This document shows positions 2,672-45,775 of a DNA stretch of 45,775 bases, one piece after another. Each line of letters opens with the position of its first letter. Position 1 is the first letter of the stretch. Made by a program: the position numbers and the translations under genes. The notes under the pieces are model-generated. The model did not search any database and had not been told where the DNA came from. It was given only the letters and a program-made list of their open reading frames with translations. Source of the DNA: Rhodothermales bacterium (GTDB lineage Bacteria; Bacteroidota; Rhodothermia; Rhodothermales; Bin80); assembly GCA_022822185.1 (NCBI GenBank), contig JAJECE010000012.1, forward strand, positions 1-45,775, in the 5' to 3' direction.

Positions 2672-3626
2672 TTTATTCACTCGAACCGCGTATACCCTGA
2701 AAGGACTGACACTGTATGCCCTTTTCAGTATAACCCTGTATGGGCCCTCGCAAACGACCTTCGCCCAGGGGACACCGTGGATTGCAGAGCCCCGTACCGG
2801 CAGTATCAGTCTTTCGTACTATAGTCAGAATTCGGACAAATTCTATTTCGGCACAGATCTCGTGGATGGGCCATCACTGGAAGATGCTGAAGCAGAGCAG
2901 ATTACGGTTTGGCTTCATGCCAACTACGCAATTACAGATGCAATTGCGGTTGATCTACAGACGGCCTGGGCTCGGAACACCTTCGATGATCCCGTCAATC
3001 CGTCTGATGAGGAACACTATGGAGCACTTTATGACAGCAACGTTTCTGTAACTTGGCGCTTTGTGGACGAATTAGTCCGTAATCATGCACCCAGCATTGC
3101 AGCGCGTGTGGGGGTAACCATTCCCGGTAAATACAAAAACGGTTACATTAGTTCGCTTGGAGATGGTGCCAGTGGAGTTGAGGGATCCCTGATTGTTGGT
3201 AAGTTCTGGGATATGGTAGGTGCATCAGGCGAAATTGGCTACCGACACAGAGGGTCTTCTTCAATAAGTGCCGGTGCTCTCGGCCCCGATGCAGGTACGG
3301 ATGTTGATGTTCCTTCAGAAATATTCCTGAACCTTTGGGTCTTTGTTCCGATTGGTAACCGTATCCGAATAGGAGGCAATTACCGCATGATCAATGCCAT
3401 TTCGGGGAGCGGACTCAAGGATCCTGATTTCCCGCCCAGCCAATTCCCCAATCTGCAAGAGGATATTCAATTTATCGGTGGCCAGGTATTTGCCGATTTG
3501 TTGTGGGGCATCAGTGCAAATGCCTTTTTCGGAAACGTTATTGACGGTCGTAACACACTAAAATTAACCGTGTCTGGCGTAGGACTGAACATGAATTTCG
3601 GTGGCAGATTCCGTGGTGGCATGTGA
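2661..3626 (+). CDS. Outer-membrane beta-barrel protein, copy 1
   Basis: The 321-residue protein has a signal peptide (about residues 1-36, ending TTFAQ). An alternating strand pattern with aromatic girdle positions follows and continues to the C-terminus, as in transporter- or porin-like barrels of Bacteroidota. No conserved domain name can be given with confidence. It is a paralogue of the 4589-5560 product: both share TPWIAEPRTGS after the signal peptide, VSVTWRFVDELV-type strands, ARVGVTIPG, and a GEIGYRHRGS segment. Loops differ most, which suggests changing surface specificity. The ATG overlaps the short decayed upstream ORF. Function is unknown. Confidence 0.75.
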   Translation: MKDNLFTRTAYTLKGLTLYALFSITLYGPSQTTFAQGTPWIAEPRTGSISLSYYSQNSDKFYFGTDLVDGPSLEDAEAEQITVWLHANYAITDAIAVDLQTAWARNTFDDPVNPSDEEHYGALYDSNVSVTWRFVDELVRNHAPSIAARVGVTIPGKYKNGYISSLGDGASGVEGSLIVGKFWDMVGASGEIGYRHRGSSSISAGALGPDAGTDVDVPSEIFLNLWVFVPIGNRIRIGGNYRMINAISGSGLKDPDFPPSQFPNLQEDIQFIGGQVFADLLWGISANAFFGNVIDGRNTLKLTVSGVGLNMNFGGRFRGGM

Positions 3627-4182
3627 TCATATGAGACGAAGCCCTGCGCTTTATCTCTAACAATCGCCGCCCCCTGCCTGAACCAACTCGTGCATAACGG
3701 TCACGGAGTCACGCGTTTTATCCATTCGCAGTTGTTTTTGATAGGATACTCACAGCCATCTCCCCTGCGGCCATACTGCAGGTAGTGTCTGGAACAGTCT
3801 GCCCCCTGAGTACCGCGACGATTAACTACTGTCTGGGGATAATGACTCTGCTGGAAGGTAATTCTGGTTGGATACCCGTCATAAGATACGTTCGGCTATT
3901 TCCTTTTAAGTATCCGACACTCCAGTAAAATCAACACACCGGCAGATTCTGAGCCTAAGTGTTTGGCACTGGGAAATGAATATTTTTAGGGTTGGATCCT
4001 CACCATTCTCAAAGAATATTCGGCAATATCGGGAGGAAATCCCAAAATGCCCTGACTGTAAGGGGGATAAAGGATACATGTCCATTGAATCCACAAATCA
4101 CTGACTGCCCCCTTTTCGAATTAAACATATTAATTACGTATATTGGGATTGTTCAGTTATTGGCAACCATTCTTGAAAACTC
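3627..4182. other. 556-base gap between duplicated units
   Basis: The gap holds no convincing gene. A frame at 3992-4186 is short, lacks recognisable features and runs into the next gene's start, so I do not call it. The promoter for the second small protein-barrel unit is expected in the AT-rich 4090-4180 part. I saw no strong hairpin. Confidence 0.4.
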
Positions 4183-4599
4183 ATGATTCGTTCTACTTGC
4201 TCGCTTGCTGTTGTTGCGGTCCTTTTTGGATTCACGGCTCCGGTTATTGCCCCATCAGGTTCCATCGGCACCGGGCCTGGTCAGATCAGTCCGCGTAAAG
4301 CATACGCACAGGGCAAGTCCCTCACCTTTAAGGTGCTGGCCTGCAAGGGATGCCCAATCCAGAAAACCGAATTGGACAAGGACCGGGCAGTCAGTCTGGC
4401 GGCCAGCCTGGAAGCGGTGTACGCGGATGAAGAAACCGGATCGCCGGATGACGATATAGTAAGAGGGCTGTGCGGGCCGGATACAGAGGAAAAAGATTGC
4501 GGCATCCGCATGGAGGTCGTCCATTATTTTCTAACCCGCCGATACAAGTTGCAAACTCCCATCCGGGGAATTCAAGACGAAGTGATTGATGAAGGATAG
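4183..4599 (+). CDS. Exported small protein with CxxC motif, upstream partner of the barrel gene
   Basis: This 138-residue protein starts at an ATG with a hydrophobic N-terminus (residues 1-24) and a YAQG-type cleavage candidate near 43, so it is probably exported. A CKGC motif lies near residues 54-57 and further cysteines near 97 and 106, possible disulfides. The C-terminal 26 residues are preserved in the decayed copy upstream of the first barrel. Its stop overlaps the start of the second barrel gene by 11 bases, implying translational coupling and a shared task such as barrel accessory or periplasmic partner. I do not recognise a family. Confidence 0.65.
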   Translation: MIRSTCSLAVVAVLFGFTAPVIAPSGSIGTGPGQISPRKAYAQGKSLTFKVLACKGCPIQKTELDKDRAVSLAASLEAVYADEETGSPDDDIVRGLCGPDTEEKDCGIRMEVVHYFLTRRYKLQTPIRGIQDEVIDEG

Positions 4600-5560
4600 C
4601 ATTGTCAGTAAAACCACCTGTGCCTTAAAAGGGCTGGCATTGTCTGCACTCCTGAGCATGGTTCTGTGGGGGCCGTCGCAGACCGCCCTTGCTCAGGGTA
4701 CCCCGTGGATTGCAGAGCCCCGCACCGGCAGTGTCAGCGTTTCATATTTCAACCAGAGTGCCGAGGAATTCTACCGAGGTACAGAAACCGTGAAAGGACC
4801 TCTGGAAGCTACCGGGGCAAGCCTGGGGCAGAGTACAGTGTGGATTCATGCCAACTATGCAATTAATGATGCAGTTGCCGTAGATCTGCAGACGGCCTGG
4901 GCACAAAGTAAAGTGGATGGTGCCGTCGGCCCGTCCGGTGGAGAGGAGAGTTACAGCGGGCTGTTTGATACCAATCTTTCTGTGACCTGGCGCTTTGTAG
5001 ACGAGCTGGTCAGCAATAATGCCCCCAGTATTGCTGCACGCGTGGGGGTAACCATTCCTGGCGGGTACGATACTGGCTATATCAACTCACTCGGTGATGG
5101 TGCCAGTGGATTTGAGGGATCCCTGATTGTTGGTAAATTCTGGCGTGTACTCGGGGCATCAGGAGAGATTGGCTACCGGCACAGAGGATCCACTTCGGTG
5201 AACTCCAATGCAGTCGGTGCCGGGAACGGCGGTGATGTTGATGTTCCATCGGAAATGTTCATGAACCTGTGGGTCTTTGTTCCGGTTGGCAACCGGATCC
5301 GGATAGGCGGTAACTACCGAATGGTCAACGCCACATCGGGAATTGATATTGGCGGAGAAGGTTTTTCGCCAAGCCGATTCCCCGGCCTGGAAGAAGACAG
5401 TCAGATTCTTGGCGGCCAATTATTTGCCGACCTGTTTGGCAGTGCAAGCGCAAATGTATTTTTCGGGAGTATTGTTGGAGGCCGTAACACGGCAAAGTCT
5501 ACCGTATTTGGTCTTGGGATCAGCGTAGGACTCGGTGGAGGCTTTGGTGGTGGCCTGTAA
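4589..5560 (+). CDS. Outer-membrane beta-barrel protein, copy 2
   Basis: The 323-residue barrel is paralogous along its full length to the 2661-3626 product. A TTG at 4586 is possible, but I chose the ATG at 4589 because it gives the same MKD start as copy 1. A signal peptide ends at about residue 37 (ALAQ), and repeated amphipathic strands reach a glycine-rich C-terminus. The conserved core and divergent loops match a tandem duplication followed by surface divergence. Its start lies inside the end of the upstream small-protein gene. Substrate or ligand unknown. Confidence 0.75.
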   Translation: MKDSIVSKTTCALKGLALSALLSMVLWGPSQTALAQGTPWIAEPRTGSVSVSYFNQSAEEFYRGTETVKGPLEATGASLGQSTVWIHANYAINDAVAVDLQTAWAQSKVDGAVGPSGGEESYSGLFDTNLSVTWRFVDELVSNNAPSIAARVGVTIPGGYDTGYINSLGDGASGFEGSLIVGKFWRVLGASGEIGYRHRGSTSVNSNAVGAGNGGDVDVPSEMFMNLWVFVPVGNRIRIGGNYRMVNATSGIDIGGEGFSPSRFPGLEEDSQILGGQLFADLFGSASANVFFGSIVGGRNTAKSTVFGLGISVGLGGGFGGGL

Positions 5561-5670
5561 TTGCAGAAAGCCGAATATCGTTCCTGAATGTCTGACGGAA
5601 ATGGGCACTATTACTGTCCCAGTTATGTGACATCAACATTGATCCACGAACGGGAAAAAGGTAGATCCGA

Positions 5671-6540
5671 ATGGATGCACAAACGATAAGATCTAAGCAG
5701 CGCTGGGATGGCTCCTCCCTCTGGCAATTTGGAATTGGTGTCTTAGGGGTTTTGATCTTCACGACTTCGCTTTCTTATGGCCAGGCGACCAATTGGGATA
5801 AGGCGGATCCCTCGAATACCGCTACAATTGACCACTCCGCCTGGCAGACAATTCTGGATACCTATCTAATCACTGATGATCCATCCGGTATCCATCTTTT
5901 TGACTATCAGGCACTCCAGGAAAATGCAACAGACCGGCAGCGCCTGAATCAATATCTTGAAAATATTCAAGGGCTAGATCCCCGCCAGTACGCAAAGGAT
6001 GTTCAGATGGCATATTGGATCAACCTCTATAATGCATTGACCGTGAACACAGTGGTGGATGCCTATCCCGTTGAATCTATCATGGAAATCCATGACGGAG
6101 AGAATCCCGGTACGGGCCCGTGGAAAGATATCCGTGCAAACGTGGCCGGAGTTCCTCTGACGCTTGACAATATTGAGCACGACATCCTGCGTCCGATCTG
6201 GCAGGATAATCGGATTCATTACGCGGTCAATTGTGCCAGTTTAGGCTGTCCAAATTTGGCACCTGAAGTATTCACATCTGCGAATCTGGATACGTTGATG
6301 GATCAATGCGCCAAAGATTTTGTGAATCATCTGCGTGCAGTGGAACTCCTGGATGAAGCGTTCGGGGTTACGTCAAGTTTGTATTTCTGGTATATGGACG
6401 ACTTTGGCGGCTCGGAGGCAGGTGTGCTGGCGCATCTGCAAAAGTACGCAGACCTAGACTTAGCCGAGCAACTCAAAAGTTTTGAGGGATCGCTGGATCA
6501 CGAATATGACTGGCGACTTAACGGGGTGGTTGCTCAATAG
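5671..6540 (+). CDS. DUF547 domain protein, exported
   Basis: The 289-residue protein has an N-terminal hydrophobic segment (about 18-37, ending SYGQ) that looks like a signal peptide or anchor. The rest carries DUF547 hallmarks: AYWINLYNALTV near 111-122 and the cysteine-containing HYAVNCASLGCPNL near 189-202, followed by the conserved C-terminal part. The conserved Cys/His region suggests a papain-like fold, as proposed for DUF547 relatives, but catalysis is not established. It lies 110 bases after the barrel gene and convergent with the glycosyltransferase; no operon partner is evident. Confidence 0.85.
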   Translation: MDAQTIRSKQRWDGSSLWQFGIGVLGVLIFTTSLSYGQATNWDKADPSNTATIDHSAWQTILDTYLITDDPSGIHLFDYQALQENATDRQRLNQYLENIQGLDPRQYAKDVQMAYWINLYNALTVNTVVDAYPVESIMEIHDGENPGTGPWKDIRANVAGVPLTLDNIEHDILRPIWQDNRIHYAVNCASLGCPNLAPEVFTSANLDTLMDQCAKDFVNHLRAVELLDEAFGVTSSLYFWYMDDFGGSEAGVLAHLQKYADLDLAEQLKSFEGSLDHEYDWRLNGVVAQ

Positions 6541-8177: not shown

Positions 8178-9425
8178 ATGATGACTGATAACCTATTTCT
8201 CTCACAGCACAATTTTCGTGCTGTTTCAATCTCCCTTGTACTCATACTCCTGAATGCGCAATCCGCACTGGGCCAGAGCCGGCGCAGTGCACCTCTTCCA
8301 GAAGGACAAGGAAAAGAACTGGTGGAGCAGTTGTGCACCTCCTGTCATGCAATTTCTACAATTACAAGGTCGGGGTTTGACGGCGTAGAGATGTGGCGTG
8401 CAGTCCAGGAATCCATGATGGAACTACCCGAATCAGAAGCCGCCAGTATTGCGGAGTATCTGGCGGAGCATTTTCCTGCCCGTGAAAACCGGAAGCCCAC
8501 ACTCGTAGACGGACCGATTGAAATAGACTTTCAGGAATGGCTCGTTCCCACACTTGGACAACGCTCCCGTGATCCGATTGAAGCTCCGGACGGCTCCATC
8601 TGGTGGACAGGAATGTGGGCCAGCCTGGTCGGACGGCTGGATCCCGTGACAGGAGAAATGCAAGAATACCCCCTGCCCCCCGAAGCAAGGCCGCACAGCA
8701 TCGTTCCTGATCATGACGGCTTTATCTGGTACACGGGCAACAGCAATGGCACCATCGGTAAACTTGACCCCGATACAGGTGGAATTACCGAGTACCCGAC
8801 CGAGGCCGGGGATCCTCATACAGCAGTTTTTCATCCAAATGGAAAACTCTACTTCACCTCACAGCGGGCCGCAATGCTTGGTCGACTCAACCCTGAGACG
8901 GGAGAACTCACTGAAATCCCAACCGATCCAAGACCCTATGGCATTATCGTAGCTCAGGACGGTATGGTATGGATTGCCTATAACGGGACAAACAAACTGG
9001 CCGTGATGGATCCCGATTCCATGGAATTGCGCTATTATCCAATTGCAGAAGAGGAAACCCGAATTCGTCGCCTGGGCATTGATTCCAGTGGAATTATCTG
9101 GTACGTGAATTCCACCATGGGGCGAATCGGCCGCCTTGATCCGGCAACCGGTGAATTCAAAGAATGGGAATCTCCGAGTGGTCCACGATCCCATCCCTAC
9201 TCTCTGTCCGTGATTAACGACAAGATCTGGTACAATGAATCCGCAATGCGTCCGGATGCACTGGTCCGATTTGATCCTGAGACCGAATCCTTTCAGAGTT
9301 GGGCAATCCCAAGCGGCGTGGGAATCATCCGACATATCTGGGTGACCCGCGAAAACGAACTGCTGATCCACCAGAGCAGCTCTAATCGCGTTGGCCGTGT
9401 AACCATCAAGGATCTGGCAAACTGA
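8178..9425 (+). CDS. Cytochrome c domain fused to a Vgb-like beta-propeller
   Basis: A signal peptide (residues 1-32, ending ALGQ) is followed by a small c-type haem domain with CTSCH at 53-57; Met85/86 is a candidate distal ligand. Residues 110-412 form a beta-propeller of the virginiamycin B lyase / SMP-30-like class, seen as repeats of the pattern IWYT...IGRLDP.TGE..EYP. Haem-binding plus propeller suggests a periplasmic redox enzyme or sensor rather than an antibiotic lyase. Many proteins labelled Vgb in environmental genomes have no lyase activity. The gene stands alone, divergent from the glycosyltransferase. Confidence 0.8.
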   Translation: MMTDNLFLSQHNFRAVSISLVLILLNAQSALGQSRRSAPLPEGQGKELVEQLCTSCHAISTITRSGFDGVEMWRAVQESMMELPESEAASIAEYLAEHFPARENRKPTLVDGPIEIDFQEWLVPTLGQRSRDPIEAPDGSIWWTGMWASLVGRLDPVTGEMQEYPLPPEARPHSIVPDHDGFIWYTGNSNGTIGKLDPDTGGITEYPTEAGDPHTAVFHPNGKLYFTSQRAAMLGRLNPETGELTEIPTDPRPYGIIVAQDGMVWIAYNGTNKLAVMDPDSMELRYYPIAEEETRIRRLGIDSSGIIWYVNSTMGRIGRLDPATGEFKEWESPSGPRSHPYSLSVINDKIWYNESAMRPDALVRFDPETESFQSWAIPSGVGIIRHIWVTRENELLIHQSSSNRVGRVTIKDLAN

Positions 9426-9622
9426 CCGGCGGCGGATATTCGTGGGATTGTATCCGATGGGCACCTCTCTCCACATTTTTCAATTTATTCCCGGGGGGAG
9501 TGGACTTTCAGTAAAAAACAGATGTCTGGACATAATAAAGGGGTATCCCCGAACCTGTTTTTGCTTGGAACAAACCGTTCCTGGAATCATTTTCCGTACT
9601 ATCCATAGTTTCCATTATACCC

Positions 9623-10801
9623 ATGTGTAATCGTGATCGCAGATCCCCCGATATAGAAGACCGGGGAAAAGCAAAGTATTTCCACGGGCGGAAACAGATA
9701 CTGGCCAACTTCAAGGAACGTCTGGAATTCGCAATGGCCAATACAGAAGCGGGAACCACATTCCTGATTCAGGCTGCGCCTGGCGCGGGCAAGACCGCGC
9801 TGCTCCATGAATGTGCACGCCTAGCTGCAATTGAGGGATTTGCAGTGGCAGAGGTGGATCCGCACAAGCTTCTAGATCCAGAGGTACTTCACGAGTCTAT
9901 TGATACATCATGGATGCGATGGCGTAGATGGCTCACACATGGATCGGCTAGCGTAGGTGTTGGTGTATTCAAGGCGGGAGTCGTTGTCGGCGGGGCGGCA
10001 AAAACCCCTCTGGGGGTCATCGAAAAGGGGAAAGGAGGGCTAGTTCTACTGTTGGATGAAGCGCAGTTGATGGACAACCTTGCGGTGGGGACCGGGATTC
10101 CGTTTATCGGTGCGAAGGCCCTGCTGACCGCAATCCACAACGGGCGGACTGGACACCCCGTGATGCTGGTCGCAGCCGGGCTGAGTGCAACGAAGCAAGC
10201 ATTCAAAGATTTGAAAATCTCAAGATTCAAGGATAACTGCTATGTTGAATTGGGCCCGCTAAAGCCAGAGGCGGAGCGGGCCGTCATTCAGGACTGGCTT
10301 AAGGAAGATGGAAAGGCGAAAGGAAATCCCATGGCATGGATTGACTCGATTGCAGCAGAGACATACGGCTGGCCCCAGCACGTTTCTGCCTATGCACAGG
10401 TAGCGGCGGTTCACCTGCGGGCAACGGGGCGGAAGATGACCCCAAAGAAGTTGAATACGGTGCTCGAAGCGGGGCGATTGAAACGGACAAAGTTCTATGA
10501 AGCCCGTGCAGACGGGCTCATTGAGGAGCACCGCGCAGCCATCGCCAAGGCTTTTGTGGATGTACGGGAGGATTCCACACAGACATACTCCGTGATTATG
10601 GGGTCCCTGATACAGGACTTCGGCAAGCGTAAAGCAGCGTCTATCTTCGAGCGTGCACTCGACAAGGGGGTACTGGACAACCGTGCAGGACGTTTCTGCA
10701 TCCCGATCCCCTCCATGCGGGACTGGTTTCTTAATAATTATTTTTCATCAAGCGGGATCCGCCTGGCAAACCGCTCCCTGCCTGAATACACACATGAATA
10801 G
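9623..10801 (+). CDS. AAA-type P-loop ATPase, orphan
   Basis: The 392-residue protein has a Walker A APGAGKT at 52-58 and a Walker B LVLLLDEA at 140-147, then a sensor-like region and an all-helical C-terminal part, resembling the AAA/STAND-like ATPases often found in accessory regions. No effector domain, transmembrane segment or DNA-binding domain is obvious. A glycine/alanine/valine-rich stretch at 107-126 sits between the Walker motifs. The gene stands alone, with flanking gaps of 197 and 344 bases, which fits an acquired single gene. Substrate and role unknown; a regulatory or defence ATPase is possible. Confidence 0.65.
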   Translation: MCNRDRRSPDIEDRGKAKYFHGRKQILANFKERLEFAMANTEAGTTFLIQAAPGAGKTALLHECARLAAIEGFAVAEVDPHKLLDPEVLHESIDTSWMRWRRWLTHGSASVGVGVFKAGVVVGGAAKTPLGVIEKGKGGLVLLLDEAQLMDNLAVGTGIPFIGAKALLTAIHNGRTGHPVMLVAAGLSATKQAFKDLKISRFKDNCYVELGPLKPEAERAVIQDWLKEDGKAKGNPMAWIDSIAAETYGWPQHVSAYAQVAAVHLRATGRKMTPKKLNTVLEAGRLKRTKFYEARADGLIEEHRAAIAKAFVDVREDSTQTYSVIMGSLIQDFGKRKAASIFERALDKGVLDNRAGRFCIPIPSMRDWFLNNYFSSSGIRLANRSLPEYTHE

Positions 10802-11145
10802 ATATCGGCAATTGAGAGACAAAAAGGATTCGTATGACAGAACGCCTTATTAGCATCTCCCCACCCACCTGTCTGCCATATCCGGTGAGCACACTATGTA
10901 TCCACGCATCCGCTCTACCGCATTCAGAACGACCAACAGGCCCTCCACACATACGCGTCTAGACGGAATGTATCCGTCCAGGAATTGATTTATTGCTCCA
11001 GTCGGAATGAAATAAAATTGTCTGATATTTCGGGAACTTCCCCGATTTCACATGGTGTCGGAAGACAAGAGAACTGTCGTTCATTTGGTCCCACAGCAGG
11101 CCTCACGCACACCGCGTCCAACAATGCACGAGATTCACACTGAGG
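10802..11145. other. Intergenic gap with one hairpin
   Basis: There is no credible gene in these 344 bases. A perfect inverted repeat, GACGGA-ATGTA-TCCGTC, lies at 10962-10978. It could end transcription from either side, although no T-run follows, or act as an operator. Confidence 0.45.
10962..10978. terminator. Perfect 6-bp hairpin, possible terminator or operator
   Basis: GACGGA and TCCGTC pair around a five-base loop between two genes that point towards each other. The lack of a U-tract makes a classic intrinsic terminator uncertain. Confidence 0.35.
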
Positions 11146-11604
11146 TTATCCCGCAATCAGAGCAACGACCGTTGCTAGCACGCCCCCAAGCACGGCAACT
11201 ACTATTCCAACAAACCAACGTAAATGGCTCATTTCCGCCTTCAGCCTACTGTTCTGAGCATCTATCTTCTCCTTCAGGCTACCGTTCTGTGCCTCCAGGC
11301 TATCCATCTTTGCCTCTAGGCTACTATTCTGCGCATCCATCTTTGCCTCCAGACTACTGTTCTGCGCATCCATCTTTGCCTCCAGACTACTGTTCTGCGC
11401 ATCCATCTTTGCCTCCAGACTGGATTCTAATTGCATGTGACTGGACTTGATTTGCTCAAGAATAGGGGTAGACAACATGTTGAATAAGGATTTGGTGAAC
11501 GCAACCGCCTCTTTGCCAGAACAACCCATGTGCTCCAAGAGAGTAAAGACATACACCTCTTCCTCAGTGGACGATGGGAGATCTGCTTTATCCTGTTTCG
11601 GCAT
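11146..11604 (-). CDS. Coiled-coil membrane protein of DUF1640-like layout with hendecad repeats
   Basis: This 152-residue protein has a helical head (15-57), a coiled coil (57-127) and a C-terminal transmembrane helix (about 130-151). The coil contains an 11-residue unit, SSLEAKMDAQN, in three to four nearly perfect copies (61-101), then diverged copies such as GSLKEKIDAQN. An 11-residue period favours a right-handed or straight hendecad coil. The overall layout resembles DUF1640/CCDC90-type proteins. Function unknown; a tail-anchored spacer or oligomeric scaffold is likely. The matching 33-base DNA repeats could vary in number between strains. Confidence 0.7.
   Translation of the reverse strand: MPKQDKADLPSSTEEEVYVFTLLEHMGCSGKEAVAFTKSLFNMLSTPILEQIKSSHMQLESSLEAKMDAQNSSLEAKMDAQNSSLEAKMDAQNSSLEAKMDSLEAQNGSLKEKIDAQNSRLKAEMSHLRWFVGIVVAVLGGVLATVVALIAG
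11308..11422 (-). repeat. In-frame 33-bp tandem repeats
   Basis: Copies lie at 11308-11340 (diverged), 11341-11373 and 11374-11406 (identical), with a partial copy to about 11422. Each encodes the 11-residue coiled-coil unit. The period is a multiple of three, so gain or loss of a copy keeps the frame and only changes coil length. Confidence 0.85.
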
Positions 11605-11954
11605 AACTGCTTAAATTCATTCTGGGGTAAACAGTTCCCTGAAACTGCATCTGATTAAGTCTCAGAAATAAACCGTGAACCGACACAATGGAACGTATTG
11701 AATACCCTTAACCAGCCATACGACTTTCTGTTCCATCTGATTTAAATACATTCCATTTCCTGCAATTTAGACCTGCCCCTGCCTCTTTCCAGATCACATC
11801 TTCAGTATCCAGACATGAACATTCGCAGTATGGATAGATTTTCGGACAGATACGACGGAAGAGATCCGAAAACGGCACACCGTGACAGAGGATGTCAACA
11901 ACAACCCTGCTACATTTGAAGCACTTGACTTCAAATCATATGTAACCTCAAGGA
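11605..11954. other. Intergenic gap
   Basis: The 350 bases contain the presumed promoter of the coiled-coil gene near 11605-11700 and a strong hairpin at 11914-11936 just past the sod stop. Frames in this stretch look like extensions of antisense sod sequence, not genes. Confidence 0.45.
11914..11936 (-). terminator. 8-bp hairpin after superoxide dismutase gene
   Basis: ATTTGAAG pairs perfectly with CTTCAAAT around a seven-base loop, 18 bases downstream of the sod stop. It is a good candidate transcription end, although no long U-run follows on the minus strand. Confidence 0.5.
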
Positions 11955-38211: not shown

Positions 38212-38274
38212 CATGTCACTGGTGCCTGCGGGAATGCTGTTCGTGCAAAATTTGACGTATCATGTCACTGGTGC
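38212..38274 (+). repeat. 14-bp direct repeat at the receptor gene start
   Basis: CATGTCACTGGTGC is found at 38212-38225, containing the start codon, and exactly again at 38261-38274, 49 bases later. A slip or recombination between the copies would remove 49 bases and bring in a stop codon after seven codons, switching the gene off. Confidence 0.5.
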
Positions 38275-40144
38275 AGTGCTTCTGACCTCTTTGATTGTGA
38301 TTCCTCAGAGCACTGCACAGCAAAGTAAACCGGCAGGAAACAGATCTGACTGGGAGGGGCTAAAAGCCCTCTATATCGAAACCGGCGGGGAAAACTGGAC
38401 GAATAATTCTAACTGGGATGTCACGCTTGAAGATCCTCCCCCTCCTGCACAGTTAACCACATGGCACGGTGTCACACTTACAGACGGGCGCGTTACCGAA
38501 TTAGATCTCTCAAATAATGGATTATCGGGAATTCTTCCCGCTGAAGTGGGAAATCTGTCGTATCTGCGTGTCCTTGATCTCCAGGAAAATGATTTATCCG
38601 GTTCCATTGGTGCCTGGATCGGGACGCTTACTGCGCTAGTCAAACTGCATCTCCAGCAAAACCAATTATCGGGCCCGATCCCTGATGAAATCGAGAACCT
38701 GACTCATCTTGAATATCTAAACCTGCGGGGGAATCGTCTGGAAGGCATGATTCCGGAGGGTCTGGGAAATTTGCAGCAACTCCAGGGGATTTGGTTGCAC
38801 GCGAACCGGCTATCTGGTCCCATCCCGCAACATGTACTGAATCTCCCGAATTTGGGCTGGTTATGGGTAGGGGAGAACCCGGATCTATCAGGAATTCTTT
38901 CCCTGACAGATCCAAGTCGGACTGCGGCCATTGACTTCTATTTAGAACAAACGGGCCTCTGCATTGATCGGCGAAGTACCGAAGTTGCAGATGTCTCAGT
39001 CCCGGACTATGCCTGCCTGCTGGAAGAAGAATGGAAGGCACTCGAGATGCTCTATCTCGCGACGGATGGTGACCATTGGATTGCCAATACCGGCTGGAAT
39101 TTTGAAAACCGCCCAAAAGCCGAAACCGTTGAAGATTGGTATGGCATTACCATCAAGGATGGATCAATTCAGGCACTGCGACTTGAACTGAATCACCTTG
39201 ACGGGATTCTGCCCCCTGAACTTGGAGCCTTAACGAAGCTTGAGTTCCTGCGCATTGATGGAAACCCTCTCTATGGACCCATTCCAGATGAACTTTCTTC
39301 GCTCGCAGGCCTGAAGGTCCTTTCTGCCGCAGAAACACAACTGTGTGCACCATCCACGGCTGCCGTGCAATTATGGCTGCGGAGAATCCCCACCGTGCTC
39401 GAACTTGACGATTGCACCAGCATCGAAGCAGCCATTTCTGCTGAATATCCCCCCGGATCATGGAGGTCACTCCCTCTCTGGATGATCATAGGACTTGGGG
39501 TATTGGGAATACTGGGGACCGGTGCAGCGTTGATCGCAGCATTCAGGAAAAATAATATCCCCGAAGAGACGGAGGAAGATGAACCGGAGGCGGATCCGTA
39601 TACCGATCAATGGATGGCCATCCAGGAGCGGCTGGAAGAGTTTATCCAAATGGCAGCTTCCATGTCCACGCTTGCGGAGCAGTCGATCCACCAGAGTGAT
39701 ATTACCAGAGATTTTGCATCCGCGCTTAAAACTCTGCGTAGTGCACTGGATCAGCGGGATCTGGAAATCAAACGTCTGCAAAGAGGCCATGATAACACAG
39801 TATTCCGTAAATTTGTTACCCGCTTCATACGCGTGGATCAGGCGATCCAGTATTTTTTGCAGAATACAGCAGGCCCGGCAGATCATTTGGAGTCTATTCA
39901 ATCTCTGATGATGGACGCGTTGCAAGAGTGTGATGTACAGCAGTTTCAGCCAGAGATTGGCAGTGATTACCGGTCCGCCTTTGGGGTTGCTGAGCATCCA
40001 AAAATTTTAATCACCACCGTAGCGGAGGATGATTGCCAGATTGTTGAAATCCTGGAACCGGGCTATTTCATGCAAGGTGGCAACGAGAAAGAAGTCCTGA
40101 TTCCGGCACGTGTGGCCATATACAGATTTAAACCCGAACAATAA
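38213..40144 (+). CDS. LRR receptor with single membrane span and GrpE-like cytoplasmic tail
   Basis: Starting at the ATG at 38213 gives a 643-residue protein with a signal peptide (hydrophobic 18-32, STAQQ near 33-37). The frame is open back to 37994, but that part lacks coding character. Plant-type leucine-rich repeats of the form LxxLxLxxNxLSGxIPxxLGNL occupy 92-227, with a second block at 273-377; each is preceded by an LRR-cap-like segment with W residues. A transmembrane helix spans 420-443, then an acidic linker (450-462), a helical stretch and a GrpE-like region (502-639). The end, IVEILEPGYFMQGG...VLIPARVAIYRF, follows the GrpE beta-domain pattern. The gene is five bases ahead of an Hsp70 gene, so the tail is probably its exchange factor. 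Confidence 0.75.
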   Translation: MSLVPAGMLFVQNLTYHVTGAVLLTSLIVIPQSTAQQSKPAGNRSDWEGLKALYIETGGENWTNNSNWDVTLEDPPPPAQLTTWHGVTLTDGRVTELDLSNNGLSGILPAEVGNLSYLRVLDLQENDLSGSIGAWIGTLTALVKLHLQQNQLSGPIPDEIENLTHLEYLNLRGNRLEGMIPEGLGNLQQLQGIWLHANRLSGPIPQHVLNLPNLGWLWVGENPDLSGILSLTDPSRTAAIDFYLEQTGLCIDRRSTEVADVSVPDYACLLEEEWKALEMLYLATDGDHWIANTGWNFENRPKAETVEDWYGITIKDGSIQALRLELNHLDGILPPELGALTKLEFLRIDGNPLYGPIPDELSSLAGLKVLSAAETQLCAPSTAAVQLWLRRIPTVLELDDCTSIEAAISAEYPPGSWRSLPLWMIIGLGVLGILGTGAALIAAFRKNNIPEETEEDEPEADPYTDQWMAIQERLEEFIQMAASMSTLAEQSIHQSDITRDFASALKTLRSALDQRDLEIKRLQRGHDNTVFRKFVTRFIRVDQAIQYFLQNTAGPADHLESIQSLMMDALQECDVQQFQPEIGSDYRSAFGVAEHPKILITTVAEDDCQIVEILEPGYFMQGGNEKEVLIPARVAIYRFKPEQ

Positions 40145-40149
40145 CTTTC

Positions 40150-41640
40150 ATGAGTTCAGTCGTAGGAATTGACCTGGGGACCACATACTCCGCAGTCGCA
40201 CAATTTGATGAATTTGGCCGACCTGTAATGGTGCCGGATCAGGATGGGAAATATCTGTTGCCTTCCTGTGTTGCGCTCATTCACGGTGAGTGGCGGGTCG
40301 GATCGGATGCCCGCGGACAGTGGGCCGCCGACCATGGGATGGAGCAGAAGTCTTCTGCCGCACGCTTCAAGCGGGAGATGGGCACCTCCAGAGACTATCA
40401 GATTGCAGAACACCGCCTGACTCCGGTGGAACTGAGCAGCCATCTGCTTCGATATCTAGCTGACTATACCCGGAAATCTGTCGGCCCCATTGCACCGGTG
40501 GTCATTACCGTACCTGCAAATTTCAGTAACGAGGCCCGACAGGCGACTATGGATGCCGCCAAGGATGCAGGACTGGAGGTCGCGAACATCATTAATGAGC
40601 CGACCGCCGCCGCCCTCTACTATGCCTATTCCGGCAAACTGAATGAGGCAGGAACGTATGCGGTCTTTGATCTGGGCGGTGGCACCTTTGATATTACTAT
40701 CGCAAGGTTTGACGGGAAGTCGGTCAATGTCATCTGGAGTGACGGCATTGCAAGGCTGGGCGGAGTAGACTTCGATGAGGCGCTGCAAATGGTACTGAAA
40801 GAGAAATATGAGACACTGACCGGCGAAGAGATCTCCATCCAGAGCATGAATCATGAGGGGTTTGATCTGGGCAGGATTCAGGATATGAAACACTCCCTGT
40901 CGCGCCGCGACAAAGTCAGTTTTTTTGCGAGGGGCCAGGTCATTGAAGTGACACGGAAGGAGTTTGAAGACAGTATTTCCAACTTTGTGACCCAGATCCA
41001 GCTGTGCTGCGAAAATGCACTGGATGGTGCAGATCTGGATGCAGTGGAATTGGATGGTGTAATCCTTGCCGGAGGCAGTACACGGATTCCTGCCGTTCAA
41101 CAGTGCGTAGAGGATGTCTTTGGATGTGAGCCCCTGAGTATTGCGAATGTAGACGAGGTCGTTGCATTGGGGGCCGCACTGTATGCCGGCCATCGATCAG
41201 ATCAGGATGTCCTTACAAAACTCCAGCAGGTCTCGGCGGCAGAGTTGAGTGTTCAGGATGTGGCAAACAAAAATTTTGGCACCAAGGCACTCTCCTGGGA
41301 CGCTGAACTGGAAAAACCCTTCGCAATCAATTCTATCATCATACGAAAGGGGACACGGATTCCCTGCTCCATGACTGAGTCCTATACGACGGTTTCGGAC
41401 GACCAGACCACCGTGGACTGCAGCATTACCGAATGTGATCATGCAGAATTGGATTACGATCCAAAGTTTGTCCGGATCATTGGCCAGACCAATCTGAAAC
41501 TGCCCCCGGGAAGACCTGCCGGGCAGGAAATTCGGGTGACCTATGAATATGACATCAACCAGATCATGCACTGCCATTTTGAGGATGTTGAATCTGGCGA
41601 GAAGAACGAGATTACCGTGGATCTGATGAAGGGCTTATAG
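40150..41640 (+). CDS. Hsp70 (DnaK-like) chaperone, lid-less
   Basis: The 496-residue protein has a complete ATPase domain: phosphate motif GIDLGTTYS (6-14), the FKREMG lysine (74), the INEPTAAALYY segment (148-158), DLGGGTFDITI (174-184), AGGSTRIP (307-314), and the closing DEVVALGAALYAG (335-347). The C-terminal part (about 360-496) is beta-rich and resembles a shortened substrate-binding domain; the usual helical lid and DVTPLSLG linker are absent. It starts five bases after the receptor-GrpE gene and ends 17 before the membrane TerB gene. It is likely to act with those neighbours rather than as the general DnaK. Confidence 0.9.
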   Translation: MSSVVGIDLGTTYSAVAQFDEFGRPVMVPDQDGKYLLPSCVALIHGEWRVGSDARGQWAADHGMEQKSSAARFKREMGTSRDYQIAEHRLTPVELSSHLLRYLADYTRKSVGPIAPVVITVPANFSNEARQATMDAAKDAGLEVANIINEPTAAALYYAYSGKLNEAGTYAVFDLGGGTFDITIARFDGKSVNVIWSDGIARLGGVDFDEALQMVLKEKYETLTGEEISIQSMNHEGFDLGRIQDMKHSLSRRDKVSFFARGQVIEVTRKEFEDSISNFVTQIQLCCENALDGADLDAVELDGVILAGGSTRIPAVQQCVEDVFGCEPLSIANVDEVVALGAALYAGHRSDQDVLTKLQQVSAAELSVQDVANKNFGTKALSWDAELEKPFAINSIIIRKGTRIPCSMTESYTTVSDDQTTVDCSITECDHAELDYDPKFVRIIGQTNLKLPPGRPAGQEIRVTYEYDINQIMHCHFEDVESGEKNEITVDLMKGL

Positions 41641-41657
41641 GCAATTCCCCGCAATCC

Positions 41658-42875
41658 ATGACCATATGCCTGATTCTGGTCGCAGTTGTTTTTTTACTTT
41701 TCTGGCTCTTTCGTGGAAGAGACTTCAGCGGCAATGCTGAAGAAGAAGGAGAACCCCCGCAGATTGCCCGTATGGATGTTCGCGTCCGTGAAGTCACGGC
41801 GGATGATTTGGTGGCAAAGCAAATCGAGGTGAAGGGACCGTTTCCCTTTGAAGCCTACGGCGAGGCCGCCGGGTTGATTGTATCCGTTTTTGATTGCACA
41901 GGGGACGAATTACATCCGGTTCTTTCGGCCGTAGAAGCCTTTCAGGAACCGTACACAATCGCCTATGATGACCGTGTAAAGGTGGGAGACATATCACCGG
42001 GAACGGGGCTTCGTATCTGGACCCCCGTCGGGATCTTCATTCCAGACATAATGCTCGGACCGCATGGAGGACACCGGCAGCTGGTCGCTGTGGTGAGACT
42101 CGTTGATGTGCATGCCAATGTGATCATTCGGAACGGGAGCGTCATTGGGGGGAGGCAAAGAATTTTTTGGACAGGAAAAGCCGAGTTCACCTGCTCCCTG
42201 GGTAAACCTGGATATATTGGATTTGAAAAGCAGCGTCGAAAACTTCAAGCGATCATGGTTAAACTGGCCGCCGCCGTTGCGATGGCAGATGGCACCATGG
42301 ATGCAGATGAACTCCAGGTCTTGCAGCAGAAAATTGAGCAGTGGCTTGAGCGGGCCGAGTCGTATTATGACGGCCTGACTGAAGCGCAGCGGACAAAATC
42401 CTATGAAAAAATTGCCCAGCATGCACTGACGAAGGCGCAAGATCATCAGATCAATACAGATGACCTGCTAAACCGCCTGCGCCGCCATGGAGATCAGAAA
42501 GTCTGGTATGAGGTGCTGGAACTGTGCATTGATGTAATGGCAGCCGATGGCATTGCAGATATAGACGAGTTGCACATCCTCCGTAAAATCGGAGATGCAT
42601 CTGGAATTGACGCAAAAGAAATTCAGAAACTGCGTGATCAGAAAATTGTTGACTTGGAAATCAAGAATCAGGGACAGACTCCCATAGAAGAGTTACTGGG
42701 CATTGATGCGGACTGGGATTTGGCAAAGATTCAACGACATCTTCGAGGGGAGTACAAGAAATGGAACAGCCGCCTCAACATGGTTTCGGAAGGGAAAGCG
42801 CGACAGAATGCCCAGATCATGCTCAATATGATCGGGGAAGCGTACAAAGATTACACTTCACAAAAAAAATCCTGA
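41658..42875 (+). CDS. Membrane-anchored TerB protein with HPD-less J-like C-terminus
   Basis: The 405-residue protein has an N-terminal membrane helix (1-19), an unknown beta-rich domain (about 38-178), a TerB-like helical domain (195-325) with two ADG(x)4(D/E)EL acidic motifs (around 210-219 and 296-305), and a C-terminal J-like domain (342-399; ELLGIDADWDLAKIQ, then KWNSRLN and MLNMIGEAY). Order TM-TerB-J recalls the DjlA co-chaperone, but the HPD tripeptide is replaced by KWN. It follows the Hsp70 gene, so it is a candidate J-protein partner using a changed contact. Confidence 0.75.
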   Translation: MTICLILVAVVFLLFWLFRGRDFSGNAEEEGEPPQIARMDVRVREVTADDLVAKQIEVKGPFPFEAYGEAAGLIVSVFDCTGDELHPVLSAVEAFQEPYTIAYDDRVKVGDISPGTGLRIWTPVGIFIPDIMLGPHGGHRQLVAVVRLVDVHANVIIRNGSVIGGRQRIFWTGKAEFTCSLGKPGYIGFEKQRRKLQAIMVKLAAAVAMADGTMDADELQVLQQKIEQWLERAESYYDGLTEAQRTKSYEKIAQHALTKAQDHQINTDDLLNRLRRHGDQKVWYEVLELCIDVMAADGIADIDELHILRKIGDASGIDAKEIQKLRDQKIVDLEIKNQGQTPIEELLGIDADWDLAKIQRHLRGEYKKWNSRLNMVSEGKARQNAQIMLNMIGEAYKDYTSQKKS

Positions 42876-43010
42876 GATCCTGGCGAAATCCTGCGATAGA
42901 TCCCATAAAAAATCTTAAATTTGGGGCATGTCTGAACAGAACCGGGATCTGCAAATATCGCCTGAAACTCAGACTCCACAAAACCATGCAAAACTAGAAA
43001 CTTGCACCCA

Positions 43011-44258
43011 ATGCCCACCGCTCCTGACGGTTCTTCCCTGCGAATTCGCGTCGAGCACTTAGATGTGGATGATGGCGAATTTTTTCAAATTGCAGTGAAG
43101 GGGAGACTCCCGGACTGTGCATATCGTAAGGATATTGATTTTGTGGTGTCCCTTTTTGATTGCAGCGGAAGTCGGGATCTTGCAATCCTTTCGGCCGAGC
43201 CCCTGCTTCAGGAGATCCATACCCCGGTTTACCAATCTCGTGAAAATGTCCGAGATAGCTACCCACGAGCAAAGGTGATCAGTTCCTGGCTGCCCATCGG
43301 GGGCTTTATGCCCGATTTTTTGATTGGCCCCCACTGGGGATTCCGAAATATCCGGGTGGTCGTGCGACTCGTGGATGTGATTGAGGATGTGGAAATTATG
43401 GTTGGAGAGGTAGTGGATGGTTTTGATGGACACCTGTGGACCGGAGAGATGACCTTTCAATGTTTCCTTCGAATGGAAGGATATACTGAAACCGCAAGTC
43501 GGCACCGGAGACTTGAATCGGTCGCACTGCGGCTGGCGGTGGCGGTGGCCATCGCTGATGGTGAGCTTGACACCAAGGAAATTGATGTCTTTCGGGATCG
43601 AATAAAATGGTGGATGGCAAATTCCCGATTCAATTTTGACGGACTGGATAAAAAACGACGCTCCACATCTTACCGGGGTATGTTAAGCCGTGCACTTTCG
43701 AGAGCCACAGAAAATAAGACCTTTGACACGGATAGGCTCCTGAAGAGATTAGATAAGGATGCAAGCCCCTACCTTTGGCGGGAACTCCTGGATCTCTGCT
43801 ATGAGGTCATGTCTGCAAACGGGATTGCCCATGCCGACCAGTTGCGTCTTATCCGCAAAATCACCGATAACGCCAACCTTGATCCAAAGGAGATTGCAAA
43901 GTTTCGGGAGCATAAAATGCTCGAATTTGAGATCAAAACCCAGGCTACGTCTGCAACCGACGAATTACTTGGAATTGACACCAGCTGGGATATTGCCAGA
44001 ATCCGAAAACACCTTCGCTGTGAATACAAGAAATGGAATGGCCGGCTCAATACTATTCCCGAGGGAAAAGCTCGCGAAAATGCGCAGGGCATCCTCAACA
44101 TGATCGGAGAAGCCTATAAAAAATATACCCTCCCAAAGCCGGCTTCTGGCGCAGACCAAACTTTGCCTGCCGCCTCCAAGACAGAAGAAATCCCCGAAGA
44201 CAGGCAAAATTCACAGGAAAATTACTGGACGCAGTTAGATCTTTTCCGTAACATCTGA
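43011..44258 (+). CDS. Soluble TerB protein with HPD-less J-like domain, paralogue of the previous gene
   Basis: The 415-residue protein begins at the ATG at 43011 (TTG at 43002 possible). It has the same layout as the preceding gene without the membrane helix: beta-rich domain 10-155, TerB 166-300 with ADGELDTKE, and J-like domain 315-372 (ELLGIDTSWDIARIR, KWNGRLN, ILNMIGEAY). The second acidic TerB motif is weakened (ANGIAHADQL). A polar 43-residue tail rich in Glu and Gln follows. It is 135 bases after its paralogue. One form is anchored and one free, so they may compete for or hand over a client or the Hsp70. Confidence 0.75.
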   Translation: MPTAPDGSSLRIRVEHLDVDDGEFFQIAVKGRLPDCAYRKDIDFVVSLFDCSGSRDLAILSAEPLLQEIHTPVYQSRENVRDSYPRAKVISSWLPIGGFMPDFLIGPHWGFRNIRVVVRLVDVIEDVEIMVGEVVDGFDGHLWTGEMTFQCFLRMEGYTETASRHRRLESVALRLAVAVAIADGELDTKEIDVFRDRIKWWMANSRFNFDGLDKKRRSTSYRGMLSRALSRATENKTFDTDRLLKRLDKDASPYLWRELLDLCYEVMSANGIAHADQLRLIRKITDNANLDPKEIAKFREHKMLEFEIKTQATSATDELLGIDTSWDIARIRKHLRCEYKKWNGRLNTIPEGKARENAQGILNMIGEAYKKYTLPKPASGADQTLPAASKTEEIPEDRQNSQENYWTQLDLFRNI

Positions 44259-45485: not shown

Positions 45486-45775
45486 TTATCGAATTCGGAC
45501 AAAGCGCCCAACCTGAACGGAATTTCCCGAAGGCGAATCTGCAATCAGACGGTAGAGATAGAGTCCCGGCGGCAAAGATTTACCATTGAGTTCAATGCGC
45601 TGTGACCAACCGGCGGACATCGTACGCTCAGGAGCGTTCATGACCCGTCTTCCGATGACATCGATCACCTCAATGCTCACCTGAGACTGCCTGGGAAGGT
45701 CAAACGTCAACTGCGTGGTTGTCCGAAAAGGATTGGGATAATTACTGTGCACCACAAATTTTTCGGGCAATGATT
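45486..45775 (-). CDS. C-terminal end of a T9SS-secreted protein (5' end outside window)
   Basis: The frame enters at the right edge and ends at the TAA at 45486-45488. Its last 95 residues are a type A sorting domain: LPEKFVVHSNYPNPF, then paired strands, SLPPGLYLYRLIADS and the basic VGRFVRIR end. This is the signal cut off and replaced by attachment to the cell surface in type IX secretion. The cargo domain is not in the window. Confidence 0.85.
   Translation of the reverse strand, partial: SLPEKFVVHSNYPNPFRTTTQLTFDLPRQSQVSIEVIDVIGRRVMNAPERTMSAGWSQRIELNGKSLPPGLYLYRLIADSPSGNSVQVGRFVRIR

Follow-up and report, generated by a model that had tools for sequence, protein, structure and literature searches.

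Can an Hsp70 serve as a signalling output, and can its J switch be replaced? The usual Hsp70 cycles are set by soluble exchange factors and by J proteins that bear the HPD motif, and the locus described here offers a natural test of both questions. In the window (the whole analysed stretch of DNA, 45,775 nucleotides from a Rhodothermales bacterium), four genes occupy positions 38213-44258, all on the plus strand and with ORF coordinates that leave gaps of 5, 17 and 135 bases (Table 1). Sequence and profile searches identify their products as a leucine-rich repeat (LRR)-transmembrane (TM)-GrpE-like protein, a lidless Hsp70 and two TerB/J-like proteins. A preliminary description of the locus had listed four same-strand genes with these gaps, an LRR receptor joined through a membrane helix to a GrpE-like region, an ATPase without a lid and two J-like proteins without HPD. 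The coordinates and gaps are correct, and the remaining features are borne out by the LRR_1 match and the one TM helix, by an Hsp70 terminus at the equivalent of DnaK ~507 and by the sequences of P0003 and P0004. What is unusual in the cluster is the LRR-TM-GrpE fusion; among the matches listed in the literature searched, neither an LRR-GrpE fusion nor the four-gene layout is described.

Table 1. Features of the cluster and the evidence for each (positions in the window)
Feature	Position	Strand	Description and evidence
Gene 1 (P0001), receptor, 643 aa	38213..40144	+	LRR ectodomain, then a single TM helix and the cytoplasmic GrpE-like tail; orthologs known
Main LRR stretch, P0001 residues 96-236	38489..38911	+	Pfam LRR_1 8.8e-22, LRR_8 7.1e-17; NCBIfam LRR matches
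Transmembrane helix, receptor residues 424-442	39482..39538	+	19-residue segment, hydropathy 2.21
Cytoplasmic tail, a coiled coil followed by a GrpE-like domain	39539..40141	+	Alignment, PF01025 in the G002b ortholog, rank test
Gene 2, lidless Hsp70, 496 aa	40150..41640	+	PF00012 4.5e-78, residue table, dN/dS 0.048
Gene 3 (P0003), TM-anchored TerB/J-like protein, 405 aa	41658..42875	+	PF05099 35.7 bits; TM residues 1-19; AF2 helices
Gene 3 TerB domain (residues 201-326)	42258..42635	+	Pfam
J-like region of gene 3, KWNSRLN at the expected HPD position	42669..42866	+	Sequence comparison
Gene 4 (P0004), soluble TerB/J-like paralog, 415 aa	43011..44258	+	PF05099 24.7 bits; 43% identical to gene 3

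The single TM helix of P0001, detected by hydropathy, is C-terminal to the LRRs, and the six receptors compared, of which one is partial, all have such a helix ahead of the tail. In a diderm bacterium, the outside-facing ectodomain of an inner-membrane protein would be periplasmic. Sequence comparisons support the tail as a very divergent relative of GrpE. One of six tails, that of the G002b ortholog, exceeds the PF01025 cut-off of 25.8 (26.8-26.9 bits over tail residues 53-209); the window tail itself has no Pfam GrpE match, and its NCBIfam GrpE matches are below threshold (E = 0.12 and 0.011). Against a background of six-frame ORFs, many of which are not real genes, a tail HMM ranked 30 GrpE frames above 1335 other ORFs with an AUC of 0.983. 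In the tail search, three non-GrpE frames scored above the first GrpE. The part of the tail after the coiled coil gave an AUC of 0.811, and the DnaJ controls gave 0.575 for the tail and a slightly raised 0.602 (p = 0.018) for this beta part. Profile alignment by hhalign with 27 local GrpEs (3 of 30 sequences dropped) was weak (9%). The AF2 model of the tail shows helices followed by strands, with a pLDDT of 49. Of the GrpE-like tail described initially, GrpE descent is supported by the one ortholog over threshold and by the rank test, and a GrpE-like fold is putative. Foldseek searches with the AF2 models of the tail and of P0003 (pLDDT 61) returned no matches at E <= 0.001. No GrpE, J-domain or TerB was a standout among the fold-search matches listed (the top VIA entry, 2h5n, at Z = 7.5, is inside the stated noise), and sequence searches of the PDB with the tail found nothing at E < 0.01. 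A weak tail match in genome G113 was rejected; it sits in an ORF that, by its motif, is presumably histidine-kinase-like.

The gene 2 product scores 263.4 bits against PF00012 (cut-off 20.6) and is below the NCBIfam equivalog cut-offs for HscA (271 versus 708.55) and DnaK (260 versus 648). All six aligned cluster Hsp70s keep the equivalents of DnaK D8, T11, K70, E171, D194 and T199, which we take to be the ATPase residues. The same six proteins have N at the D481 equivalent and no lid (SBD alpha) sequence, since the cluster Hsp70 ends at the DnaK position given above. Purifying selection is evident in the dN/dS of 0.048, which makes the Hsp70 the most constrained of the cluster genes measured (0.339 for the receptor, 0.234 for gene 4). 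The GrpE-signature loop is missing in the seven cluster Hsp70 copies looked at, and both cleft salt-bridge pairs, K55-E267 and R56-E264, are absent in the six aligned ones. HscA and HscC also lack this loop and these salt bridges, and are thought not to use GrpE (PMC8215388). Given these absences, the cluster Hsp70 may release ADP unaided, and the tail may not control nucleotide exchange.

Both TerB/J-like proteins of the window exceed the PF05099 (TerB) cut-off of 24.4, as do four of the nine family members in all. Because only P0003 has an N-terminal TM helix, the two proteins are not equivalent. For gene 4, an alternative TTG start at 43002 is possible. The J-like region is collinear with the J domains of DjlA (L025, in a wrong reading frame, was left out of this comparison). 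The TM-TerB-J order of DjlA recurs in P0003 only, where a further beta-rich domain separates TM from TerB, and the DjlA equivalog score of 162 is reached by neither protein (22.7 for P0003, 13 for P0004). No PF00226 match is listed for any of the nine J-like members, and the genome scan gave none at the cluster. The hhalign comparison of the J-like region with 21 J domains (9 of 30 dropped) is not significant (2.7%; one of 30 shuffles reached 7.0%). As a candidate for the helix II-loop-helix III hairpin of a J domain, the AF2 model of P0003 offers helices spanning residues 355-375 and 380-401 (pLDDT 64-80 by block over 351-400), and unrelated hairpins match them equally well. Searched against the PDB, the TerB/J profile hit calcineurin B EF-hand chains (best E = 8.8e-7) and one TerB (0.31), which we took as a resemblance of helix repeats. 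Of its six weak matches in the phylum, also set aside, five are DjlA-like proteins with HPD and one is unrelated.

HPD is absent from all nine J-like regions, which have KWN[SG]RLN instead, and at the position of DnaK R167, the arginine on which HPD acts, all eight cluster Hsp70s have N, Y or H. The same genome also encodes a canonical DnaK-DnaJ-GrpE set; its DnaK keeps R167 and its two canonical J proteins keep HPD. Read from the residues, the J contact is changed on both sides, in the J-like protein and in the Hsp70, and this is new here. There is a genetic parallel: DnaK R167H suppresses DnaJ D35N (PMC7289447). J proteins encoded in accessory plasmid operons also lack HPD (4/4), and their partner Hsp70s have lost R167 in two of four cases and kept it in two. 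The altered contact is therefore a recurring trait of accessory Hsp70 operons and not special to the cluster, and an answer to the J-switch question may reach further.

The genes travel together. Eight clusters are present in six genomes, this one included, and the receptor-Hsp70-TerB/J order holds in seven of them; the eighth (G005b) keeps the Hsp70 and TerB/J genes and has no intact receptor, and in G003 gene 3 is disrupted by an insertion. The co-location test proposed in the preliminary description is thus upheld in relatives. In each of the seven places where the tail was seen, it is followed by an Hsp70 of this lidless kind with an ATPase-competent look, and TerB/J-like proteins accompany it. 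The set is kept in two paralogous lineages and at a second chromosomal location; its divergence is vertical-looking, and the chromosomal neighbourhood is the same in four of the six genomes. Among 244 genomes of the class, the six with the cluster all belong to one family. Within the genus, the Hsp70 occurs in five of 10 genomes, the same five that have TerB/J, which supplies a presence/absence set for comparison. A scan of genome contigs returned L003 only; it was limited to exact peptide patterns, so that a wider spread is possible. Copies of P0003 and the tail were absent from plasmids and IMG/VR viral contigs, and a phage collection, searched with the Hsp70 only, gave a best match of 32.6%.

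Our preferred reading, held tentatively and at a little less than an even chance, is that the genes form a dedicated Hsp70 module, tethered to the membrane, in which a signal sensed by the LRRs is passed via the tail to the Hsp70. The layout suggests that an outside signal is relayed through a chaperone, a direction that we infer. We propose that the tail, dimeric by its coiled coil, would dock onto the Hsp70 ATPase domain, and that the TerB/J-like proteins, one of them membrane-bound, would dock at the altered J interface, with WN[SG]RLN at its centre. If the LRR domain sensed a ligand or an envelope change, the tail would shift and could thereby alter the Hsp70 in its nucleotide state, its peptide binding or its position; the Hsp70 would then act upon a membrane or signalling client nearby. 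The chaperone would thus be the output of the receptor. In a more specific form, which we consider doubtful, the Hsp70 would be ligand-gated: the GrpE-derived tail would switch it across the membrane, and the Hsp70/J pair, like some accessory pairs, would have exchanged the HPD-arginine switch for another co-evolved contact, here between WN[SG]RLN and the N, Y or H in place of R167. If true, a ligand-gated Hsp70 would represent a transmembrane signalling class in which the chaperone cycle is the output. The earlier proposal that a ligand alters nucleotide exchange is weakened by the partner Hsp70 having neither the GrpE-signature loop nor the cleft salt bridges.

These same losses, shared with HscA and HscC (PMC8215388), and the loss of HPD would fit a tail that is simply a tether. 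The GrpE scaffold would then hold a fast-exchanging Hsp70 at the membrane and the J-like proteins would be scaffolds, with no ligand-controlled nucleotide step. However, every ATPase residue checked is kept, the Hsp70 is the most constrained cluster gene measured, and a GrpE fold would be an odd choice for a plain anchor; we regard this alternative as unlikely.

Could the cluster instead assist envelope biogenesis, by folding or quality control, at the inner membrane, of exported proteins or of proteins with LRRs? The second gene beyond the cluster encodes LRRs homologous to those of the receptor (38.9% over 175 aa, E = 9e-27) together with a subtilase domain. Its product also has a T9SS sorting domain, which scores 32.8 bits in the window fragment against a cut-off of 27, and 26.9 bits in G003; a DsbA-like gene lies between it and the cluster. 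This secreted subtilase-LRR protein could be among the clients, and the LRR domain would recognise related proteins with LRRs or the state of their folding. Yet in G006 the DsbA-LRR pair is kept in the absence of the cluster, and folded periplasmic proteins would be out of reach for a cytoplasmic Hsp70; we find this account quite improbable.

A role in conflict or anti-phage defence, with the Hsp70-GrpE-J components setting an effector threshold, is very doubtful. It would agree with the patchy presence of the cluster and with a weak PADLOC match to SngA of Shango (E = 0.002), which we take to be TerB-bearing. Hsp70 and GrpE with DnaJ or TPR form a theme of about 14% of GAP1-N2 GTPase neighbourhoods (PMC7159879), and a Rhodococcus plasmid operon combines a short Hsp70, J-TPR, GrpE and an FtsK-like gene. 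However, no effector was recognised in the cluster, and the absence of P0003 and the tail from plasmids and viral contigs, the vertical-looking divergence and the neighbourhood kept in four genomes argue against it. The immunity role proposed earlier is accordingly left without positive support. Adjacency of unrelated genes by chance, which the 135-base gap between genes 3 and 4 and the receptor lost from one cluster might indicate, is contradicted by the conserved linkage of eight clusters and is highly improbable.

Among known systems, HscC of E. coli shares with the cluster Hsp70 the 76-101 deletion, the missing GrpE signature, N at D481 and a location near genes for dedicated membrane J proteins (the membrane-anchored DjlB/DjlC; PMC8215388). 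In contrast, HscC keeps the lid sequence and R167, its system has no receptor or GrpE-like tail, and tree support for grouping the two is only 0.54. DjlA, a membrane TerB-J protein whose activation of the Rcs phosphorelay needs DnaK and GrpE, is a precedent for the preferred reading and resembles the cluster in joining a TM-TerB-J protein to an Hsp70 and GrpE, the envelope signalling being that of the DjlA system; it differs in its required J-domain histidine (H233Q is inactive), in using the general DnaK and GrpE and in having no LRR receptor (PMC11709261). Like the cluster, the operons of the GAP1-N2 theme (PMC7159879) and of plasmids supply a second Hsp70 along with a GrpE, a J protein or both of its own. 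No GTPase family was matched by Pfam among nine neighbouring window proteins or the four cluster genes. The Rhodococcus operon Hsp70 (510 aa, with a linker insertion) is short like that of the cluster. The accessory plasmid operons share the HPD-less J proteins; of their Hsp70s, the two cyanobacterial ones carry Q in place of R167, whereas those of Rhodococcus and Paracoccus keep R167, unlike those of the cluster. The accessory operons also differ in that their GrpE and J proteins pass Pfam where scanned, no LRR-TM-GrpE fusion is present, and TerB is neither annotated nor matched. With canonical DnaK-DnaJ-GrpE, finally, the cluster shares the same three types of component, and all three of their interfaces have diverged in it.

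The Hsp70 cluster is conserved and represents more than a chance adjacency of genes. Relatives of gene 3 occur in 6 of the 59 genomes searched (the window's own included), all from one family; class-wide, the same 6 of 244 genomes (2 of 89 genera) carry them, and across a phylum sample of 296 genomes, strong matches to gene 3, as to the receptor tail, are confined to G000 (the window's genome) and G002. These six genomes hold eight clusters (one each in G000, G003, G009, and G010, two each in G002 and G005). The succession of receptor, Hsp70, and TerB/J genes is kept in seven of the eight, which upholds the co-location in related genomes on which the preliminary description had staked its proposal. 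In the second G005 cluster, all that lies upstream is a tail-like stretch of 35 residues. In the G010 cluster, on a 4-kb contig, the receptor is partial and the Hsp70 frame is broken. TerB/J genes are paired in G000, G003, and G009. Within the genus, the Hsp70 is present in 5 of 10 genomes, the same five that have TerB/J genes.

Coordinates of the cluster genes and of other features in the window and the compared loci
Location	Positions	Strand	Feature
Window	38213-40144	+	Gene 1, receptor
Window	40150-41640	+	Gene 2, Hsp70 (Pfam, 4.5e-78)
Window	41658-42875	+	Gene 3, TerB/J-like
Window	43011-44258	+	Gene 4, TerB/J-like
Window	45486-45773	-	Subtilase-LRR gene
L022 (G003)	3264-6170	-	Subtilase-LRR gene
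Window	9623-10801	+	ATPase-like ORF, 392 aa
L003 (G003)	~10118-11023		~906-bp element
L003 (G003)	~10873-10971		~95-bp repeat
Window	10987-11853		Relative of ~906-bp element
Window	11146-11604	-	ORF of that relative
L015 (G009)	~7890-7965		Gene 3 membrane segment, split off by in-frame stop codon
L042 (Nostoc)	5821-6117		HPD-less J protein beside accessory Hsp70
L041 (Acaryochloris)	6073-6369		HPD-less J protein beside accessory Hsp70
L040 (Rhodococcus)	8580-9689		HPD-less J protein beside accessory Hsp70
L043 (Paracoccus)	8700-10943		HPD-less J protein beside accessory Hsp70

In the window's 3.7-Mb host genome, the four genes lie on one strand at spacings of 5, 17, and 135 bases, and the architecture first proposed for gene 1 is borne out by Pfam and hydropathy: a leucine-rich-repeat region (LRR_1, 8.8e-22) is joined through a single membrane helix (residues 424-442) to a tail some 200 residues long. 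A hydrophobic, signal-like segment at the N-terminus reaches the hydropathy threshold in the G009 receptor and both G002 receptors and falls below it in those of the window and G005, the latter short (418 aa). Nearby, a secreted subtilase carries a T9SS sorting tail and LRRs that share homology with those of the receptor ectodomain; in the window, the contig ends within its gene, and the G003 protein spans 968 aa. The ATPase-like ORF elsewhere in the window has a P-loop discernible by eye and no Pfam match at 1e-4.

Transitive homology leads us to regard the receptor tail as a diverged homologue of GrpE. The window's own copy, described at first as GrpE-like, is below threshold for both Pfam and NCBIfam GrpE. 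The claim is supported through an ortholog, the G002b tail (40% identical to the window's), which scores 26.9 and 26.8 bits along the domain (Pfam GrpE cut-off, 25.8), and through a rank test, where a six-tail profile placed 30 GrpE frames over 1335 other ORFs (AUC 0.983; 0.811 for the part after the coiled coil; DnaJ controls, 0.575 and 0.602). Individual matches score low, and the first GrpE is outranked by three frames that are not GrpE. Direct hhalign comparison with GrpE is weak (9%), and the AF2 model of the tail is uninformative. Three genomes of the same family (G011, G014, and G015) encode GrpE frames that are 358-513 aa long and each match GrpE twice, with a DnaJ gene on the same stretch in the first and third (L071 and L073).

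The Hsp70 retains the catalytic residues checked in all six aligned cluster copies. Alignment confirms that it lacks a lid; the IB segment (DnaK 76-101) and the GrpE-signature loop are also missing, and a linker insertion is gained. At the peptide-pocket positions examined, I401 is replaced by T in 6/6 copies; M404 and V436 are hydrophobic, as is A429 except in G005b, where it is R. Neither salt bridge, K55-E267 or R56-E264, is intact in any of the six. The GrpE signature is reported to be absent from HscA and HscC, and fast ADP release by HscA is explained there by the missing K55-E267 and R56-E264 (PMC8215388). It is chiefly the missing loop and salt bridges that speak against a classical exchange step. 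Ligand-controlled nucleotide exchange, as originally envisaged, is possible, yet weakened by the Hsp70's own features.

Both J-like proteins lack HPD, as had been noted; all nine J-like regions carry KWN[SG]RLN instead, a placement that comes from alignment with DjlA-type proteins and relies on collinearity: of six weak matches in the phylum, five are TerB-J proteins that keep HPD. Statistical J-likeness is poor, both by hhalign and by rank test (AUC 0.732 versus 0.566 for the GrpE control). R167, the nucleotide-binding domain residue that the HPD aspartate perturbs, and whose R167H change suppresses DnaJ D35N (PMC7289447), is replaced in all eight cluster Hsp70s, five times by N, twice by Y, and once by H. 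Its partner D481 is N in 6/6 aligned copies, and D393 is D or E. Within the window's own genome, R167 and D481 persist in DnaK, and HPD persists in the two canonical J proteins. Loss on both sides together with a new invariant motif suggests that the contact was altered rather than decayed. HPD loss is less special to the cluster, because it recurs in all four accessory plasmid operons compared (Rhodococcus, Nostoc, Acaryochloris, and Paracoccus), and is perhaps a more general trait of accessory Hsp70 partners. It is not strictly tied to R167 loss, since R167 is retained in Rhodococcus and Paracoccus and is Q in both cyanobacteria. D481 is also N in HscC and the Nostoc Hsp70.

Genes 3 and 4 share 43% identity and exceed the Pfam TerB cut-off of 24.4 (35.7 and 24.7 bits). 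Gene 3 has an N-terminal membrane helix; gene 4 has none, nor do any of the seven remaining TerB/J proteins as annotated. An in-frame stop codon in G009 parts the gene 3 membrane segment from the rest, through either an error or a real split. The region upstream of TerB is predicted with low confidence to be beta-rich (AF2) and has no convincing Pfam match. In G003, gene 3 is broken by an element with a 9-bp target duplication, similar ends, and a 128-aa coiled-coil/membrane ORF, and no recognised transposase. Nested within it, and missing from its related copy in the window, is a MITE-like hairpin-forming repeat (fold, ~-32 kcal/mol), dispersed in G000 and G003, where it accounts for 28/36 and 32/49 matches, respectively; the eight remaining genus genomes have two matches in total.

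Hsp70 divergence is close to that of flanking genes (G009: 80.6% for Hsp70, 78% and 69% for flanks), so the cluster seems to be long established in the genus, with several losses and one relocation. The Hsp70 of a near relative is 99% identical to the window's. Between the flanking SDR and DsbA-like genes there are ~63 bases in G006, ~125 in G004 and G009, and 6.4 kb in the window; G001 has a 951-aa ORF in that place and no cluster match, and the G009 cluster sits on another contig. Values of dN/dS against G003 (receptor, 0.339; gene 4, 0.234; Hsp70, 0.048; three flanking genes, 0.091, 0.178, and 0.213) indicate faster evolution of the receptor and gene 4, and slower evolution of the Hsp70, than in the neighbouring genes.

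The suggested role in immunity has no positive evidence. The most likely reading is that the cluster forms a dedicated Hsp70 module tethered to the membrane, in which a GrpE-like tail is fused to the receptor and the co-chaperone contact is altered. Among known relatives, DjlA, a membrane TerB-J protein, is reported to activate Rcs with DnaK and GrpE, an activity that requires membrane localisation and the J domain (PMC11709261); HscC partners with membrane DjlC (PMC8215388); and HSP70, GrpE, and DnaJ or TPR fusions occur in GAP1-N2 GTPase neighbourhoods (PMC7159879). On the Rhodococcus plasmid, J-TPR, GrpE, and FtsK-like genes accompany a short Hsp70, and all of them exceed Pfam cut-offs. No description of an LRR-TM-GrpE fusion was found among the matches listed in the literature searched. 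That fusion, present in none of these four systems, sets the cluster apart from them, and we class it with the accessory Hsp70 systems.
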